DNA of 64,000 bases from Alphaproteobacteria bacterium (GTDB lineage Bacteria > Pseudomonadota > Alphaproteobacteria > JANQMY01), in the NCBI GenBank assembly GCA_028289425.1, contig JANQPL010000012.1, positions 1 to 64,000 on the forward strand, in the 5' to 3' direction. Shown here piece after piece: positions 7,697-47,681 of the stretch. Made by a program: the position numbers and the translations under genes. The notes beneath the pieces are model-generated. The model had not been told where the DNA came from, made no database searches, and saw only the letters and a list, made by a program, of their open reading frames with translations. Position 1 is the first letter of the stretch. Each line of letters begins with the position of its first letter.

Positions 7697-8911
7697 CTAG
7701 AGTGCGACAACCGTGCCGGCGGCGTCCAACTCCTCCGGGTCGCCCACCACCACGAAGGATTTGGGCAGGTACCCATTGAAGTTCGACGCATAGGCGTTGC
7801 TGTAGGCGCCCATCATGCCGAACTCGATCCAATCCCCGCGCTTCAAATCGGCGGGCAATGTCATCGTATCGTTCAGTTGATCGCACGAATCGCAGGTGGG
7901 GCCGAACACGGTGTAATCGGTCGTCGGTCCATTGAACGCGCGGATCTCACCGGTGGCATTCTCGCGAAATGCGCGGATGGGATAATTGATGGCCGCGCCT
8001 TCCAAATTGCGCTCCATGAAAGACCCATAGGCGCCGTCATTGAGATAGAGCTGGTTGCCTTTGCGCAAGATCACTTGTGCCACAAGCGAGACGCCCTCGG
8101 CCACCAGTGCGCGCCCAGGCTCTGCAAACAGATCCACCGCCGGACCGAACATTTGTTTTTCGCGAAACGCCTCAATCGCTTTGAAATAGTCGTCCAGCGG
8201 CGGCGTCTGACCGCCCGGATAAGGGCAGGGGAAACCACCGCCCACATCCACCGTCTGGATACTGACATTTGCCTGGCGCGTGACATCCTCGCAGATCTCG
8301 CCGGCCCGGGTGAACGCGGCCGGATCTTCACATTGAGAGCCCACATGGAAAGTTAGGGCGGGCATGGCACCGCGCGCGGCGATCTGTTGGAGCAACCGGA
8401 CGGCCGTCTTCCTGTCGGCGCCAAATTTACTCGATAGGTCGAACATGGCGTCGTCATTGTCGGTGGCAAGCCGCACGAAGATCGTGAGGCCTTCGCCGCC
8501 CGTCTCGTCGAAAATAGCGTCCAGCGCGTCTTCCGTATCCACGGCAAAATCGCGAATGCCGAATTCCCGATATGCGGTTTCATAGGCGCCCACCGGCTGA
8601 AACGGTGCCATCAAATAGGCGGACGCATCGGGATAGCGCTGCCGGATGAGCGCAACCTCTTCAAGGGAGGCCACGTCGAAATCGCGAATGCCGGCCGCGT
8701 AGAGCGGATCGAGCACCACGGTCGACGGGTTGCACTTGACCGCATAAAGCGTCCAGCCGGGAAATCCCCGCAGAAACTCCGTGACCTTGGCTTGCAGCAG
8801 CTTGGGCTGAACCACATAGGTGGGGGCATTTGGGCGCAGGCTTTCGATCACGTGCTCGACGCTCGAGAAGCGGCGGGACGGGTCAAGATGTGTGGCGGGA
8901 ACCAAACTCAT
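7697..8911 (-). CDS. Ornithine (or lysine/ornithine) decarboxylase, fold type III
   Basis: A 404-residue PLP enzyme of the eukaryotic-type ODC family. LYAVKCNP holds the PLP Lys (K59), TFHVGSQC the pyridine-stacking His, DVGGGFPCPYPG the phosphate-binding glycines, and GPTCDSCD (337-344) the catalytic Cys and substrate Asp. It makes putrescine from ornithine, the first step of polyamine synthesis, feeding SpeE/SpeD encoded near 47 kb. It is followed by the aminotransferase gene. The 135-base upstream region holds the GCGCAC-N3-GTGCGC dyad shared with the speE/speD promoter and the XRE locus. Lysine as a second substrate cannot be excluded. Confidence 0.93.
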   Translation of the reverse strand: MSLVPATHLDPSRRFSSVEHVIESLRPNAPTYVVQPKLLQAKVTEFLRGFPGWTLYAVKCNPSTVVLDPLYAAGIRDFDVASLEEVALIRQRYPDASAYLMAPFQPVGAYETAYREFGIRDFAVDTEDALDAIFDETGGEGLTIFVRLATDNDDAMFDLSSKFGADRKTAVRLLQQIAARGAMPALTFHVGSQCEDPAAFTRAGEICEDVTRQANVSIQTVDVGGGFPCPYPGGQTPPLDDYFKAIEAFREKQMFGPAVDLFAEPGRALVAEGVSLVAQVILRKGNQLYLNDGAYGSFMERNLEGAAINYPIRAFRENATGEIRAFNGPTTDYTVFGPTCDSCDQLNDTMTLPADLKRGDWIEFGMMGAYSNAYASNFNGYLPKSFVVVGDPEELDAAGTVVAL

Positions 8912-9046
8912 TTACGTGTACACTCCAATGCAAATCCGCCCCGCCAAGGCCTGCGGGCGCGCTGATATACGCCAAAAGCGGCCGACTTGGTAGCACTTTT
9001 CCACAGAAAAGGGAAGCGCACTCTGTGCGCAATTTTTTGAGAGGGC
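8912..9046 (-). promoter_or_regulatory. odc 5' leader, candidate structured RNA
   Basis: A GC-rich 135-base stretch between the PqiA-like gene and odc, far longer than a plain ribosome-binding site needs. It includes a 6-bp hairpin cttttc/gaaaag (8996-9001 with 9006-9011) next to the operator, several G/C blocks able to pair (for example around 8941-8990), and the palindrome gtgtacac just after the GGAG ribosome-binding site. Alphaproteobacterial odc genes have been reported to carry a conserved leader RNA (the speF element). Whether this is one needs a covariance-model search. Confidence 0.4.
9016..9030. promoter_or_regulatory. Operator-like dyad GCGCAC-N3-GTGCGC in front of odc
   Basis: Perfect 6-bp inverted repeat with a TCT spacer, centred 112 bases before the odc start. 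The same dyad occurs three times between the XRE gene and the 80-aa gene (27879-27951) and once between speE and speD (47051-47065). No convincing -35/-10 pair could be placed for odc, so activation and repression are both possible. Confidence 0.6.
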
Positions 9047-26038: not shown

Positions 26039-27421
26039 TTACGCCGCCGGTTGAGACGGTCCCGGCTGGCTGCTGTCTTTCACCAGCCGAATCTCGTCGT
26101 CTTCGGCGATCAGATCTTTGAGAGTCAAGCCCCTTAGCGCGTTGGCGCGCGCCTGGCGCATGTCGGCCACCAAATTCTTGATGTGCGGATTGGTCAGTGT
26201 GTGGCGTGCCCCATGATGCCCTTGTTCATCCGCACCCCGCACAATGTCGATCACATGCGCCAAGGAAATCTGGTCCAACGGCTGGGCCGGCAGATAGGCG
26301 GGCTCGTCGCCGGCCGCCGCTACGATGATTTTGTTTCCTTGGAACGCCGTGATGATGCGGCTCACCGAATCCAATGGCACCGAAAGATGGCGTGCCAAAT
26401 CGTTGGCGGTCCATGGTGACAGGCCCGCACTAAACCTCTGGGCGATCAGCATGGCTACGTGAAGGGCGAGCCGTTCCCGTTCGGCAATGCTCAATAGCAG
26501 GCTTCTCGGCTGAAGTGTAACATATTCAGGATGCTGATGATAAAAAGCGATCTTTAGTCCAATGAGCAGGATTGTCCAACCGGCGTAAAGCCAAACCATG
26601 AAAAGGACAAGCGAGGCGAGCGCCGAATAGATCGCGGCGTATTGGGCCGATCCGACCACGAAGGAGGCAAACGCCCATCCTGTGACGTTCCACAAAATGC
26701 CGGCGGATATGCCGCCGACCAGGGCGCTCACAAACCGCACGCGCGCATTCGGCACAAAGCAATAGATGAATGTGAACGCTGATATGACCAACAGATAGGG
26801 CGTGAGCTGAATGCCGGCGGCAATCAGGGTGCCGAAGGGCTCTATCCGAGCAATGGCCTCGAAGATGGCGCTGTTCATCAGGCTGGCCATGATCCCGACC
26901 GCAGAGAATACAAGCACGGGGCCGATGAGGATCACGCTCAGATAATCGCTGAAGCGTCTCGCCAATGGGCGCAATGACCGCACTTGCCAAATTTCGTTAA
27001 ACGCTTCTTCGATTTTCTGAAGCAGGGAAATGACGGTGTAGACCAGGAACAAAAGGCCGATCGATCCCAAGACGCCAATGCTGATGTTGGAAACGAACGA
27101 AACGACGGTATTGGTGATCTCAACACCTTGCTCGCCCAAAGGTGCGAGAAGATTGAGCAACGTGATTTCTATTTCGTTGTGGACGCCAAAGGCTTTGAGG
27201 ACGGAGAAACTCACCGCCAGCACCGGCACGATCGAAAGCAGCGTGGTGTAAACCAGGCTCATGGCCAGCAAGCTCAGGCGGCCGTCGGCGAAATCCCGCG
27301 CCACAACGGAACAAACACGCGCGGCAGAAACGGCGATGCGTTGCCAAAACGGTAGCGCGCGTAGATTTGCTTCCCAGATTTTCTCGCGCACCCATGTGCG
27401 CCATTTGGTCAGGTACACCAT
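26039..27421 (-). CDS. YihY/BrkB family membrane protein with winged-helix tail
   Basis: A 460-residue protein. Six hydrophobic segments in the first 290 residues include SLVYTTLLSIVPVLAVSFSVLKAFG and the signature region SALVGGISAGILWNVTGWAFASFV. A cytoplasmic C-terminal part of about 170 residues looks like a winged helix (LSPWTANDLARHLSVPLDSVSRIITAFQGNKII). Older names as ribonuclease BN are not supported for this family, and function is unknown. It is convergent with the histidine kinase, 11 bases apart. Confidence 0.9.
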   Translation of the reverse strand: MVYLTKWRTWVREKIWEANLRALPFWQRIAVSAARVCSVVARDFADGRLSLLAMSLVYTTLLSIVPVLAVSFSVLKAFGVHNEIEITLLNLLAPLGEQGVEITNTVVSFVSNISIGVLGSIGLLFLVYTVISLLQKIEEAFNEIWQVRSLRPLARRFSDYLSVILIGPVLVFSAVGIMASLMNSAIFEAIARIEPFGTLIAAGIQLTPYLLVISAFTFIYCFVPNARVRFVSALVGGISAGILWNVTGWAFASFVVGSAQYAAIYSALASLVLFMVWLYAGWTILLIGLKIAFYHQHPEYVTLQPRSLLLSIAERERLALHVAMLIAQRFSAGLSPWTANDLARHLSVPLDSVSRIITAFQGNKIIVAAAGDEPAYLPAQPLDQISLAHVIDIVRGADEQGHHGARHTLTNPHIKNLVADMRQARANALRGLTLKDLIAEDDEIRLVKDSSQPGPSQPAA

Positions 27422-27480: not shown

Positions 27481-27729
27481 TTAAGCGTGCACCTTCTTTT
27501 CTTTCCGCCGGTCTTTATCCCTGGCGTCGGGTCCATGATAATCTGGAATTTCCAAGGTAAGGGCATAGCATGCCAGCCTTACGGTTTTCGGAATAATGAC
27601 TTCCTTACCGTCCCGGTTGCCTTTTTCGTAGTACTGGACCACGCGGCGCTTTAGCCCCAGCGCCTCAGCCGCTTCCTTTTGCGACAGTTTCAGAGATTTT
27701 CGCCATCTTTTGAAATCAGCGGCATCCAC
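27481..27729 (-). CDS. XRE-type helix-turn-helix regulator
   Basis: An 82-residue DNA-binding protein read from GTG at 27729. An in-frame start at 27795 would add 22 residues without family character. The HTH is DFKRWRKSLKLSQKEAAEALGLKRRVVQYYEKG, followed by VIIPKTVRLACYALTLEIPDY, a layout common for small chromosomal XRE regulators of alphaproteobacteria. The C-terminal tail is very basic (DKDRRKEKK). It is divergent from the 80-aa gene, and the region between holds three tandem dyads that it may bind. The same dyad precedes odc and lies between speE and speD, so it is the best local candidate for a polyamine-gene regulator. This is inference from motif sharing only. Confidence 0.82.
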   Translation of the reverse strand: MDAADFKRWRKSLKLSQKEAAEALGLKRRVVQYYEKGNRDGKEVIIPKTVRLACYALTLEIPDYHGPDARDKDRRKEKKVHA

Positions 27730-27878
27730 AACGCACCGTTTCCCTTTGAGTCGGCGGTTTACCCCGCCTGCGTCAAAGACCAAAAAAACACACACCGTCT
27801 CGAATTTCGAGATTTACTCCAGAAACCCAGGATTTCCGCCATATTTTAAACAAACGATCAGCCAGAAAGCAATGATTG

Positions 27879-27951
27879 ATGCGCACCTCGTGCGGGTCGC
27901 CTTGACAATGCGCACACAGTGCGCATATAGGAAGTGCGCACCACGTGCGCA
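27879..27951. promoter_or_regulatory. Three tandem operators (TGCGCAC-N3-GTGCGCA)
   Basis: Site 1 (27879-27897) is imperfect on its right arm. Site 2 (27908-27926) is a perfect 8-bp dyad with spacer ACA. Site 3 (27935-27951) is a perfect 7-bp dyad with spacer CAC. Centres are 29 and 26 bases apart. Site 2 fills the space between the -35 and -10 boxes of the plus-strand promoter and site 3 covers the start region, so a bound protein would block RNA polymerase. The density and perfection of the dyads make chance unlikely. Confidence 0.75.
27902..27931 (+). promoter_or_regulatory. Sigma-70-type promoter of the 80-aa gene
   Basis: TTGACA at 27902-27907 is a perfect -35. TATAGG at 27926-27931 is the -10 with an 18-base spacer. 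Predicted start is near 27938, giving a leader of about 80 bases. The spacer is fully occupied by operator 2. Confidence 0.7.
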
Positions 27952-28017
27952 TTTTTGTCAATCGGAACGCGATTGCAAATGCAGACAGCCTCACAAAAAG
28001 AATGAAAGGAGGTCGAT

Positions 28018-28260
28018 ATGTGGAATTGCGTTTATGTCTATGGTGATCACGCCTATGCCAGACGGAAGTCTTTCGAGCGCTCTGAAGGCGTTTCTATTGA
28101 CGAGGCCGAACGCGTGCGGACCTATGCCTTGTGGCCAAGATATGTTTTTCGCGTCGAATACGACGGTGAACATGTCCTCACCACAGATCCGGTGGATGTG
28201 CGCCGCATCACCAAGAGACACCCCGTAGCTGATGTGACGGTTATACAAATCGTTAACTGA
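28018..28260 (+). CDS. 80-residue protein of unknown function under XRE-type operators
   Basis: A small soluble protein with many aromatic and charged residues (for example WNCVYVYGDHAYARRKSFE, ALWPRYVFRVEYDGEHV) and a predicted beta-rich second half ending ADVTVIQIVN. No signal peptide, membrane helix or known domain was recognised. It has a near-perfect ribosome-binding site, aaaggagg, 6 bases before ATG, and a strong promoter interrupted by operators, so it is likely produced strongly when derepressed. A terminator follows at 28306-28337, making it a single-gene unit. If the operators report polyamine status, this protein joins that response. Confidence 0.8.
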   Translation: MWNCVYVYGDHAYARRKSFERSEGVSIDEAERVRTYALWPRYVFRVEYDGEHVLTTDPVDVRRITKRHPVADVTVIQIVN

Positions 28261-28305
28261 TGCGGCATGTCACCCGGTGGCAATGAGCCGCCGATGCATA
28301 CAAAG

Positions 28306-28337
28306 ACCCGGCTCTCTGTCTTGGAGAGCTGGGTTTT
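28306..28337 (+). terminator. Intrinsic terminator after the 80-aa gene
   Basis: Arms acccggctctc (28306-28316) and gagagctgggt (28324-28334) form an 11-bp stem with one G-U pair and a 7-nt loop, followed by four T and a further T-rich stretch. Confidence 0.8.
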
Positions 28338-28498
28338 GGTTTGTCTCGACACAGCCGGTTGGCCCTGGCACGTCATGGGAAATTGCCTATTAACCAATTT
28401 CCGCCACATTGCAAATGTGTTTGCATGACAATCGTTGCCCAATGCGGCAGCCGGGCAAACACATTGGGTCCACCACAGAAACAGTGGCGCGTTCACCG

Positions 28499-29905
28499 AT
28501 GATGAAATCGGAAACACAAGAACAATTGAAAGCTGTCCTGTCCGGCTTGCCGGAGAAGTACGTGGAACCTTTTGTGAGCGCCGTAGAATTCGACCGGCTG
28601 GCGGGTGGCAATCTGCCCCATTCGCTGATCATTGAAAGTCTGCGTCCGGCATTGAAAAAATTGGGTGTTCCAAGGTTCGGCACGCCGACCCCGTTGCGAC
28701 TGTTTTGCGAACCCTTTGAAGACATTCTGTTCTCAGGACCGGTCTTTCCAAAGTCGCCCGGACGTGTTTCCCGCCTGTCGATAGCACCGGTCTGGGATTG
28801 GCTGTCGGAACTGATTCCCGACGCCCACAAATCCCTCTACGACCTGATCGTGAAGCAGATCTTGTCGCGCCAAGAAGAAAAACTTACCGCGGCGACCGGT
28901 GAATTGCATCGCATGTCGGCGAATGCGCTCAGCACGATCTTCCTCTCCTACGAAATCGGCACGCCCGAATATGTGGCCATGGCGAAGCGTCTTGGCAGCG
29001 AGGCGATCTTGGAAGACGCCCGCGACATTGCAGCCGTGTTGACGATCGCTGCCTATGCCCATCGATTGAAGGAACAGTTTCCCCGGCCAATCTTGAAGCT
29101 CGACGAGGATGACTTCGTTTTCATTCGCGCGATTTATGACGAACTGTGTGAACGGTATCCAAACCAATCGAAATATCTGGTTTACTTGCTCATGGGTCGG
29201 ATGAAAAAACCGTGGCACGTGTTAAGCGTTCTGCCGGTCCTTTGTCGAAGCAAGAATGAAGATAAAATTCGCGAGTCCGAACTCGGCGAAGTCGGCGATC
29301 AAATATTTTCGGACATCGAACAACTCGCCGGCGAAATCGAAAGAACGGATTTCCTAAAGCGCGGTCCGGCAAAAAGCCTCAATTTGCTAACGCAATTTGT
29401 GGAAGCGTCCAGGGGCATAACCCGGCAGATGAGCTTGAAGCGCGACGGCCCATGGGGCAAGCGCCTTTTCGAATCGCGCAAGCGCGTAGCGCAAGCCATG
29501 GAGCATCAGCTCAATCGTTCGGTTGACACCATCATTTCCGCATTTCCGACGGTCAAGATGGGCGCCTTTGGTGACACCGGGGCCCACCGGCCGGATCTAA
29601 CGGAAGCGCCTAATTCGGACGATGTGGAACACGCCGCAAAGATCGCCATTTTCATAGATCGTACACGGACGTTAGCGGCGGATGCGGCGTTCGGCAAACA
29701 CCACAAAGAAGCGTCCAGCCGCGTGGAGCAGTTTCTGCTGGGCTATGGCGCCGATATGATCACCGAAGTGCGCGCCGGCAACAATGACACCATCCGTAAC
29801 CTCCAAGCGCATTTGGAAGCGACGGTAAAGCTTACCGGCCTGGTGGTGGGGGAAGAAGAAGCCGATCTGTTCCTCCGGCGAGCCACCACGGCCGCGCGGA
29901 ACTAA
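28499..29905 (+). CDS. 468-residue conserved-looking protein of unknown function
   Basis: Read from ATG at 28499 (a second ATG follows at 28502). Longer in-frame starts reach into the terminator-proximal spacer and add no convincing residues. The protein is soluble and almost wholly helical, with leucine-rich and charged stretches (LPHSLIIESLRPALKKLG, FIRAIYDELCERYPNQSKYLVYLLMGRMKKPWHVL). The C-terminal 120 residues are strongly helical and could be coiled. No catalytic motif, signal or membrane segment was recognised. It stands alone between the XRE segment and a dispersed repeat. Codon use looks like that of neighbours. Confidence 0.75.
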   Translation: MMKSETQEQLKAVLSGLPEKYVEPFVSAVEFDRLAGGNLPHSLIIESLRPALKKLGVPRFGTPTPLRLFCEPFEDILFSGPVFPKSPGRVSRLSIAPVWDWLSELIPDAHKSLYDLIVKQILSRQEEKLTAATGELHRMSANALSTIFLSYEIGTPEYVAMAKRLGSEAILEDARDIAAVLTIAAYAHRLKEQFPRPILKLDEDDFVFIRAIYDELCERYPNQSKYLVYLLMGRMKKPWHVLSVLPVLCRSKNEDKIRESELGEVGDQIFSDIEQLAGEIERTDFLKRGPAKSLNLLTQFVEASRGITRQMSLKRDGPWGKRLFESRKRVAQAMEHQLNRSVDTIISAFPTVKMGAFGDTGAHRPDLTEAPNSDDVEHAAKIAIFIDRTRTLAADAAFGKHHKEASSRVEQFLLGYGADMITEVRAGNNDTIRNLQAHLEATVKLTGLVVGEEEADLFLRRATTAARN

Positions 29906-46090: not shown

Positions 46091-46951
46091 CTACTTGGAC
46101 AGCGCTTCAATCCAGTTGGGCAGGGCGTAGGCTGCACGATGGATTGCGGGATTGTAGTAGGTGGTGGAGATGGCCGTATCCGCATAGCGCTGCTGCACCA
46201 GCTTCAAATTGTCTTCCCGGCCAAGGGCAAACCCTTTGCTAGCCCAGGTTAGAGCCATGAAGCCCCCTGTGTATGTGGGCGTCACTGTGAGATAAACGCC
46301 GCTGTGGTTGAATGTGTTGCGGAGCTGGCGGCAGGTGTCGCTCAATTCCTCCGCTTGAAGAAAGGGCGCGCCGGTTTGAAAAACCGCGATGCCCTCCGGC
46401 GTCAACGCATCCGAAATCGTTCGGTAGAACTGGTCGGAAAACAGAACCTCCGCGGGACCCACCGGGTCCGGCCGGTCGCTAACGATCAAATCGTATTTGC
46501 CCAATTGCTCGGGTTCTTTCAAGAACTCTGCTGCATCACAGATGTTGACGTTCAGGCGGCTATCGTCAAAGGCGCTGGCATTGAGGTCCGTGAAATGTTC
46601 ACGACACAGATCAACCACGCGGCCGTCAATTTCCGCAAGATCGACCGTCTCGACCGACTTATGCTTGAGTGCTTCCTCCGCAACCGCCAAGTCGCCGCCC
46701 CCCACGATGGCCACTTGTTTCACATTGCCGTGTTCGAGCATGGGCAAATGGGTCAGCATCTCGGAATAGCTGTCTTCGTCGCGGGTGGTGATTTGAACGA
46801 TCCCGTCGAGTGCCATGACGCGTCCATTGTCTTCCGTGTCGAAGATTTGGATGTGCTGGAACGTGCTGCGCTCATCGACCAGCATGTCGCCCATCAACCG
46901 AAACCCCTGAAAATACCCGCCGTGAAGGTCTTCGATGAATGTTTGCGTCAT
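46091..46951 (-). CDS. speE: Polyamine aminopropyltransferase (spermidine synthase)
   Basis: A 286-residue enzyme that adds the aminopropyl group of decarboxylated SAM to putrescine. FQHIQIFDTEDNGRVMALDGIVQITTRDEDSYSEML covers the polyamine and dcSAM-binding start, and SDRPDPVGPAEVLF contains the catalytic Asp. The usual GGGDG motif reads GGGDLA, losing one glycine. ATG at 46951 fits the family, and a 35-residue upstream extension does not. It is divergent from speD, with the shared operator dyad 107 bases from its start. Confidence 0.93.
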   Translation of the reverse strand: MTQTFIEDLHGGYFQGFRLMGDMLVDERSTFQHIQIFDTEDNGRVMALDGIVQITTRDEDSYSEMLTHLPMLEHGNVKQVAIVGGGDLAVAEEALKHKSVETVDLAEIDGRVVDLCREHFTDLNASAFDDSRLNVNICDAAEFLKEPEQLGKYDLIVSDRPDPVGPAEVLFSDQFYRTISDALTPEGIAVFQTGAPFLQAEELSDTCRQLRNTFNHSGVYLTVTPTYTGGFMALTWASKGFALGREDNLKLVQQRYADTAISTTYYNPAIHRAAYALPNWIEALSK

Positions 46952-47050
46952 TTTGTGCGTGTTTTCCCTATGCTCGAGGCAACCGTAAATCGCGCGGACA
47001 TATAGGGCAGTTGAGCTGTGATGAGAACCCAAAATAAAGTGGTCAAAAAA

Positions 47051-47065
47051 GCGCACGTCGTGCGT
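47051..47065. promoter_or_regulatory. Operator-like dyad between speE and speD
   Basis: GCGCAC-GTC-GTGCGT, a 5-of-6 dyad matching the sites at odc and the XRE locus. It is placed between TTGACC (minus strand, near 47040-47045) and TTGACG (plus, 47075-47080), so one protein could act on both genes. Confidence 0.55.
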
Positions 47066-47074
47066 ATTTTTTTG

Positions 47075-47246: not shown

Positions 47247-47681
47247 ATGTCTCAGTCGAAAGTTGTTAAACTGTCCGACACGGCGGCGGAAACGGCCCAA
47301 CCTGCTGAAATCAAAGACTATTTTGTGGAGCGAGACGGCCTGGTTTTCGCGGGCAGTCACATTATTGTGGATCTCTGGGGTGCCCAGGGGCTGACGGACG
47401 TTGCCTTCATCGAGGCCGCCCTGCGCAAGGCCATCACCGCGTCGAAAGCCACATTGTTGCACATCCACTTGCACCAGTTTGGGCCAAATGAAGGCATCTC
47501 CGGCGTGGCTGTTTTGGCGGAATCGCACATCAGCATCCACACATGGCCGGAGCGCGAATTCGCCGCCATCGACATATTTATGTGCGGTGGGGCTGACCCG
47601 GCCAAAGCGATCCCGGTTCTGAAAGAAGCGTTTCAGCCGACGAACGTGTCGATCGGCGAATACAAACGCGGTGTGGTCTGA
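47247..47681 (+). CDS. speD: S-adenosylmethionine decarboxylase proenzyme
   Basis: A 144-residue prokaryotic-type AdoMetDC. The self-cleavage site that makes the pyruvoyl group is E92-S93 in LAESHISIHTWPE. The downstream IDIFMCGGADP and the HIHLHQFGPNEGISGVAVL strand complete the family pattern. It makes decarboxylated SAM for SpeE. The N-terminal 20 residues are an extra tail. It is divergent from speE and upstream of the FAD oxidoreductase operon. Confidence 0.94.
   Translation: MSQSKVVKLSDTAAETAQPAEIKDYFVERDGLVFAGSHIIVDLWGAQGLTDVAFIEAALRKAITASKATLLHIHLHQFGPNEGISGVAVLAESHISIHTWPEREFAAIDIFMCGGADPAKAIPVLKEAFQPTNVSIGEYKRGVV

Follow-up and report, generated by a model that had tools for sequence, protein, structure and literature searches.

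An 82-aa XRE-family protein and a divergently encoded 80-aa protein appear to form, in the stretch of alphaproteobacterial DNA analysed here (64,000 nucleotides; hereafter the window), an autoregulated switch in which the XRE repressor would gate a small effector gene and which, in this genus, would also be wired to polyamine synthesis. We consider this reading likely. The anatomy of the locus, the co-occurrence of the two gene families, the conserved placement of operators and the sites in trans are all read directly from sequence. The module is apparently unannotated, class-wide and recognizable by an operator inside the promoter spacer, and its small-protein family is absent from the libraries searched; literature searches on the motif or the module returned nothing relevant. 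A "hypothetical protein beside an XRE gene" thereby becomes a testable switch, the XRE protein a concrete candidate regulator of putrescine and spermidine synthesis in this genus, and the common promoter slot, with its varied small proteins, a handle for discovering more.

Layout of the locus and its two proteins

The locus (27481-28337) comprises two genes that diverge around three palindromes, XRE on the minus strand and the 80-aa gene on the plus strand:

27481-27729, minus: gene for a putative 82-aa XRE-family repressor (start probably GTG 27729; mechanical ORF call from 27795)
27843-27848, minus: candidate -10 (TAAAAT) of the XRE gene promoter, 18-nt spacer
27867-27872, minus: candidate -35 (TTGCTT) of the XRE gene promoter
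27880-27896: operator 1, TGCGCACCTCGTGCGGG, 12/14 to TGCGCAC-N3-GTGCGCA, beside the candidate XRE promoter
27902-27907, plus: -35 (TTGACA) of the 80-aa gene, perfect
27909-27925: operator 2, perfect palindrome (14/14), filling the -35/-10 spacer
27926-27931, plus: -10 (TATAGG) of the 80-aa gene, 4/6
27935-27951: operator 3, perfect palindrome (14/14), downstream of the 80-aa promoter
28005-28012, plus: ribosome-binding site AAAGGAGG, preceding ATG 28018
28018-28260, plus: 80-aa gene (ATG 28018), alpha/beta product without family match
28303-28337, plus: intrinsic terminator, folding energy below that of shuffles

Much of this had been anticipated by an earlier, sequence-only reading of the same DNA. 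Its three tandem operators between divergent genes are present, and its operator within the -35/-10 spacer is operator 2; its 222-base shared region, on the other hand, needs correction. The 104-aa ORF from GTG 27795 is a mechanical call and, since the N termini of homologues lie a few residues ahead of DFKRWRKS, GTG 27729 is probably the XRE start, so that the intergenic gap is rather 288 bp. The promoter of the 80-aa gene (TTGACA-18-TATAGG), whose 18-nt spacer is occupied by operator 2, had been called near-consensus; this holds for the perfect -35 and is generous for a -10 matching at 4/6 positions, although a TA-type -10 stands there in homologous loci. The promoter was not among the calls of a consensus promoter scanner. 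Operators 2 and 3 are the sole perfect consensus copies in the 5.42 Mb genome. The strong ribosome-binding site and the private terminator were both confirmed: a strong Shine-Dalgarno sequence is seen in most homologues, and the terminator stretch (28296-28350) has a minimum free energy of -27.9 kcal/mol (z=-5.7), with 0/200 shuffles equally stable. The candidate promoter of the XRE gene comes from sequence reading only and displays no clear conservation among homologous loci. Rfam gave no match in the window. On the XRE side of the locus, 26039-27421 encodes a fusion of a YihY/BrkB-type membrane protein with an Rrf2-like winged helix (PF03631 and PF02082). Past the terminator lies a protein of ~470 aa (28500-29905; a 498-aa ORF from TTG 28409) with no significant Pfam match, whose homologues are directly divergent from XRE in the sister species G001 and in loci L033, L040 and L042.

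The XRE protein belongs to HTH_3 (PF01381, 32.4 bits; cut-off 23). Its model (pLDDT 88.6) is a five-helix HTH plus a loose tail, and the nearest solved folds, the HTH of NE0471 (2auw), HipB and Aca1, agree with the sequence search. Residues conserved in ~50 XRE homologues include K-x-R-x-x-Q-Y-Y-E-K-G. Residue 54, the Cys of the "RLAC" helix, is invariant in the same set; redox or metal sensing through this residue is possible. The 80-aa protein, on the other hand, is an orphan, with no match in Pfam, NCBIfam, PHROGs or PADLOC and nothing significant against the PDB by sequence. Structure prediction, proposed earlier as a check, gave a confident AlphaFold model (pLDDT 90.8, pTM 0.76; beta-beta-alpha-beta-beta-beta-alpha-beta, containing two short helices but no HTH) but no convincing fold match in the PDB or among viral structures (best PDB Foldseek E 0.65; VIA Z <=3.2). 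Shortened relatives, retaining the C-terminal half only (...PRFAYRV..TDPVEV...), occur at L053:2598-2771 and in L066.

A small HTH protein beside a small orphan invites comparison with toxin-antitoxin systems of the MqsRA or HigBA type, where XRE would be the antitoxin and the 80-aa protein the toxin. XRE has weak matches to the MqsA family, the MqsA C-terminal domain and HipB are among its fold neighbours, and the MqsA palindrome, too, has a 3-bp centre (PMC4894380). Yet the MqsA-type scores fall below the curated cut-offs (PF15731, 20.1 bits against 30; TIGR03830, 27.1 bits against 61.8), and the genes are divergent, here and in homologous loci, rather than joined in one operon. It is the putative toxin that has the strong ribosome-binding site, the antitoxin starting at a weak GTG, XRE alone is common, and no plasmid or phage match was obtained. 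No toxin fold was found for the 80-aa model, although the lack of an MqsR/RelE-like fold among its Foldseek and VIA matches is weak evidence. We thus set the toxin-antitoxin reading aside, on the scores and the divergent arrangement, as quite improbable.

Distribution, operator placement and partner exchange

With a 20-member profile, the 80-aa family was found in 8 of 385 genomes of the class Alphaproteobacteria, and the XRE family in 36/385. All eight carriers are among the 36 XRE genomes (hypergeometric P=2.7e-9), whereas 28/36 of the latter have XRE without the 80-aa family. Homologues occurring mostly without the XRE gene or its operators had been named in advance as the observation that would count against a module; carriers without the XRE family numbered 0/8, the opposite of that observation. 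The 80-aa gene is the divergent neighbour of XRE in 7/8 carriers and, in the remaining carrier, draft genome G065, the two genes lie on different contigs, the 80-aa gene there having three operators, one of them filling the promoter spacer. A search with the single sequence had given few relatives in the 385 class genomes, 4/5 of the clear ones with a divergent XRE homologue, and a contig scan with the lone 80-aa sequence gave none; diverged members in Thalassobaculum, Oleispirillum and Rhodospirillaceae came from an XRE search in named genomes and a rereading of the upstream DNA. Among cultivable relatives, Thalassobaculum litoreum and Oleispirillum naphthae have both genes. A set of 249 phylum genomes contained no further carrier, a weak result as many of these were members of the class.

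The placement of operators is highly conserved. In 19/20 loci of the 80-aa family (18/19 XRE-linked loci plus G065) an operator separates a TTG-type -35 from a TA-type -10; the loci were gathered by protein similarity and not by operator, hence the count is not circular, although related genomes are not independent. A second operator usually stands 31-34 bp upstream, approximately three helical turns (29 bp in the window), and a third, downstream operator is also observed in G065, G106, G378 and L055. The spacer-embedded operator also occurs in 12/33 XRE loci without the 80-aa gene. One of these comes from a streamlined genome of 1.4 Mb (L049), which retains XRE and a spacer-embedded operator and has a different small ORF as the divergent gene. 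Most XRE homologues have upstream operators whether or not the 80-aa gene is present, and XRE autoregulation is therefore plausible. Overall, the claim of a compact, autoregulated module agrees well with the co-occurrence, the nearly constant divergent neighbourhood and the conserved spacer operators. The composite promoter pattern was also found in 4/19 XRE-negative genomes; thus, single sites in trans can be chance.

What lies opposite XRE is, however, variable among loci without the 80-aa gene. The sister species G001 retains an XRE 84% identical to that of the window, together with one degenerate operator, and has no 80-aa gene (lost or never had), which indicates that the 80-aa gene is dispensable; the gene adjoining XRE there is homologous to the 498-aa ORF located after the 80-aa gene in the window. 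In L027, L028, L031, L034, L036 and L038 the divergent partner is a small basic protein. These partners and that of L024 are ~50 aa long (pI 10-11 where computed) and have the same operator type; the four tested had no Pfam match. Elsewhere the slot is taken by a Lys-rich protein (L058, L068), a shortened 80-aa-like protein (L066) or other genes. Along an XRE tree of 49 rows, with few columns and poorly resolved, the partner type switches several times, and the repressor would thus be the stable element and the output gene the exchanged one. Such exchange points to the 80-aa protein as an interchangeable output, not a co-regulator that XRE always requires.

The same evidence bears on a different role for the 80-aa protein, that of an antirepressor or tuner binding XRE in SinI-SinR-like feedback, in a closed loop with no separate output. 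Consistent with this are the fact that the 80-aa family is never found without the XRE family, the position of its gene under XRE's own operators, and the presence of SinR/SinI among XRE fold neighbours. However, XRE retains its operators where the 80-aa gene is absent and offers little outside the HTH for partner binding, and the slot of the 80-aa gene is taken elsewhere by unrelated small basic or Lys-rich proteins, odd for a dedicated partner of XRE. We give the antirepressor a real but minor chance and, because partners are exchangeable and XRE is independent of the 80-aa gene, favor the 80-aa protein as output.

The module has no phage, plasmid or viral-contig match, and its neighbours in the window are of chromosomal type. 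This context weighs on another reading, an anti-CRISPR-like cassette in which a strongly expressed small inhibitor would stand under an Aca-like repressor. The Aca1-like HTH, the similar operator core (the Aca1 site has the same CAC-N3-GTG core as the window operators; PMC9410881) and the strong promoter and ribosome-binding site of a small orphan protein are all as expected for such a cassette; the divergent genes in place of an acr-aca operon, the missing mobile context, the wide chromosomal distribution and the 6/8 carrier genomes without a Cas1 match are not. With operon order and mobile context both lacking, and a Cas1 match in 2/8 carriers only, the cassette was rejected as very improbable.

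Operators in trans and polyamine genes

Across the genome, 42 sites have <=2 mismatches to the operator, ~30 of them in coding DNA; a reversed control pattern gives 16. Outside the XRE locus, good intergenic sites number three in the whole genome: before an ornithine decarboxylase (ODC)-like gene, between speE and speD, and at a gene for a 37-aa protein. The first two are the sole good non-coding matches beyond the locus within the window. The features are as follows:

7697-8911, minus: ornithine-decarboxylase-like PLP decarboxylase (PF02784, 1e-28; PF00278)
9015-9031: trans operator AGCGCACTCTGTGCGCA, 13/14, preceding the decarboxylase gene; identical block in G001
46091-46951, minus: spermidine synthase, speE (TIGR00417, 271.6 bits, cut-off 249.55; PF01564)
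47050-47066: trans operator AGCGCACGTCGTGCGTA, 12/14, between divergent speE and speD
47247-47681, plus: S-adenosylmethionine decarboxylase, speD (TIGR03330, 129.9 bits, cut-off 75.65; PF02675)
L192:1436-1549 (contig C18 of the same genome): 37-aa Arg-rich ORF, unannotated, pI 12, with tandem operators at ~L192:1705-1742

A GPTCDSxD motif, read in the sequence, suggests that the decarboxylase is an ornithine decarboxylase; against curated NCBIfam equivalogs the protein stays below all cut-offs. When compared with G001, the 37-aa ORF differs at 5 first, 3 second and 19 third codon positions and, given that the changes are mostly at third positions, is taken as coding; it and the small basic partners are possibly one family. 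The operators of the ODC and 37-aa genes are near-perfectly conserved islands in G001, with diverged flanks. Overall, the sites at 9015-9031 and 47050-47066 suggest a polyamine regulon of XRE, and the earlier hint of a response to putrescine or spermidine finds support in them. At ODC and speD the operators seem near or upstream of the -35, and the protein bound there could activate rather than repress. In other XRE-bearing genomes, ODC homologues have no convincing upstream operator; thus, the polyamine wiring is at best genus-specific, and a universal polyamine regulon was discarded. Nor do the trans sites in G029, G378 and G379 fall at genes recognisable as polyamine genes.

The operator that the 80-aa gene shares with ODC and speE/speD in this genome also fits a direct action of the 80-aa protein on polyamine synthesis, for instance by partnering the ODC-like enzyme or inhibiting it in the manner of an antizyme. 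Yet the operator-ODC link is not seen beyond the genus, whereas the 80-aa protein is, and we regard direct action as quite unlikely. A wider version would have XRE regulate polyamine synthesis in the lineage by sensing polyamines or a charge-related state, the 80-aa protein being a dedicated effector of that response (e.g. an antizyme-like inhibitor) and the slot hosting exchangeable small proteins class-wide, many of them highly basic; this, too, we hold to be unlikely.

Proposed mechanism and known systems

Returning to the repressor that gates a small effector gene, we infer that XRE is the protein that binds the operators, that binding means repression, that the 80-aa protein acts as an effector and that the polyamine genes are wired to the same regulator. 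XRE would be a small dimeric HTH repressor recognising GCGCAC-N3-GTGCGC. By analogy with Aca1, a dimer on the spacer operator would exclude RNA polymerase from the strong 80-aa promoter, and tandem sites approximately three helical turns apart would allow cooperative binding. The XRE-proximal operator, overlapping or abutting the presumed promoter of the repressor itself, would set the level of XRE. Upon repressor release, the strong promoter, strong ribosome-binding site and private terminator would deliver the 80-aa protein in a sharp pulse. Within this genus, XRE would also act in trans on the ODC-like, speE/speD and 37-aa Arg-rich peptide genes, and the 80-aa protein would most likely be a small effector made together with altered polyamine synthesis. 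As to the inducing signal, the invariant Cys and the polyamine genes may serve as leads only.

Several known systems share parts of this arrangement. The C-terminal HTH of MqsA resembles XRE in its fold and in a palindrome with a 3-bp centre; yet XRE has no zinc-binding N-terminal domain, no MqsR/RelE-like partner was found and the genes are divergent. Phage lambda cI/cro likewise pairs divergent genes with three tandem operators in the intervening DNA and a small HTH repressor (loci homologous to that of the window have two or three operators), although the 80-aa partner is not a predicted HTH protein and there is no phage context. Among solved structures, the C-terminal HTH of NE0471 (PDB 2auw) matches XRE best both in sequence (E=2e-4) and in fold, the IPxTxxLAC helix included; unlike XRE, NE0471 is a two-domain protein. 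In another alphaproteobacterium, Caulobacter, the XRE-family repressors RtrA and RtrB control one small protein inhibitor, HfiA (PMC6530869), a likeness by description; they are not described there as a divergent pair. Aca1, Aca2 and Aca10 (PMC9410881; PMC9410906) are small dimeric HTH proteins, as XRE would be, similar in sequence and fold, with an operator within the strong promoter of a small orphan protein and, in Aca1, a CAC-N3-GTG palindrome; here, sequence and model comparison recover the inverted repeat in the promoter and the similar HTH. However, in acr-aca operons the aca gene follows acr, whereas the window genes are divergent, and the module is chromosomal and class-wide, with no mobile context found and most carriers without a Cas1 match. 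Overall, the module may best be described as a putative autoregulated HTH repressor gating a small-protein gene, Aca-like at the DNA level.
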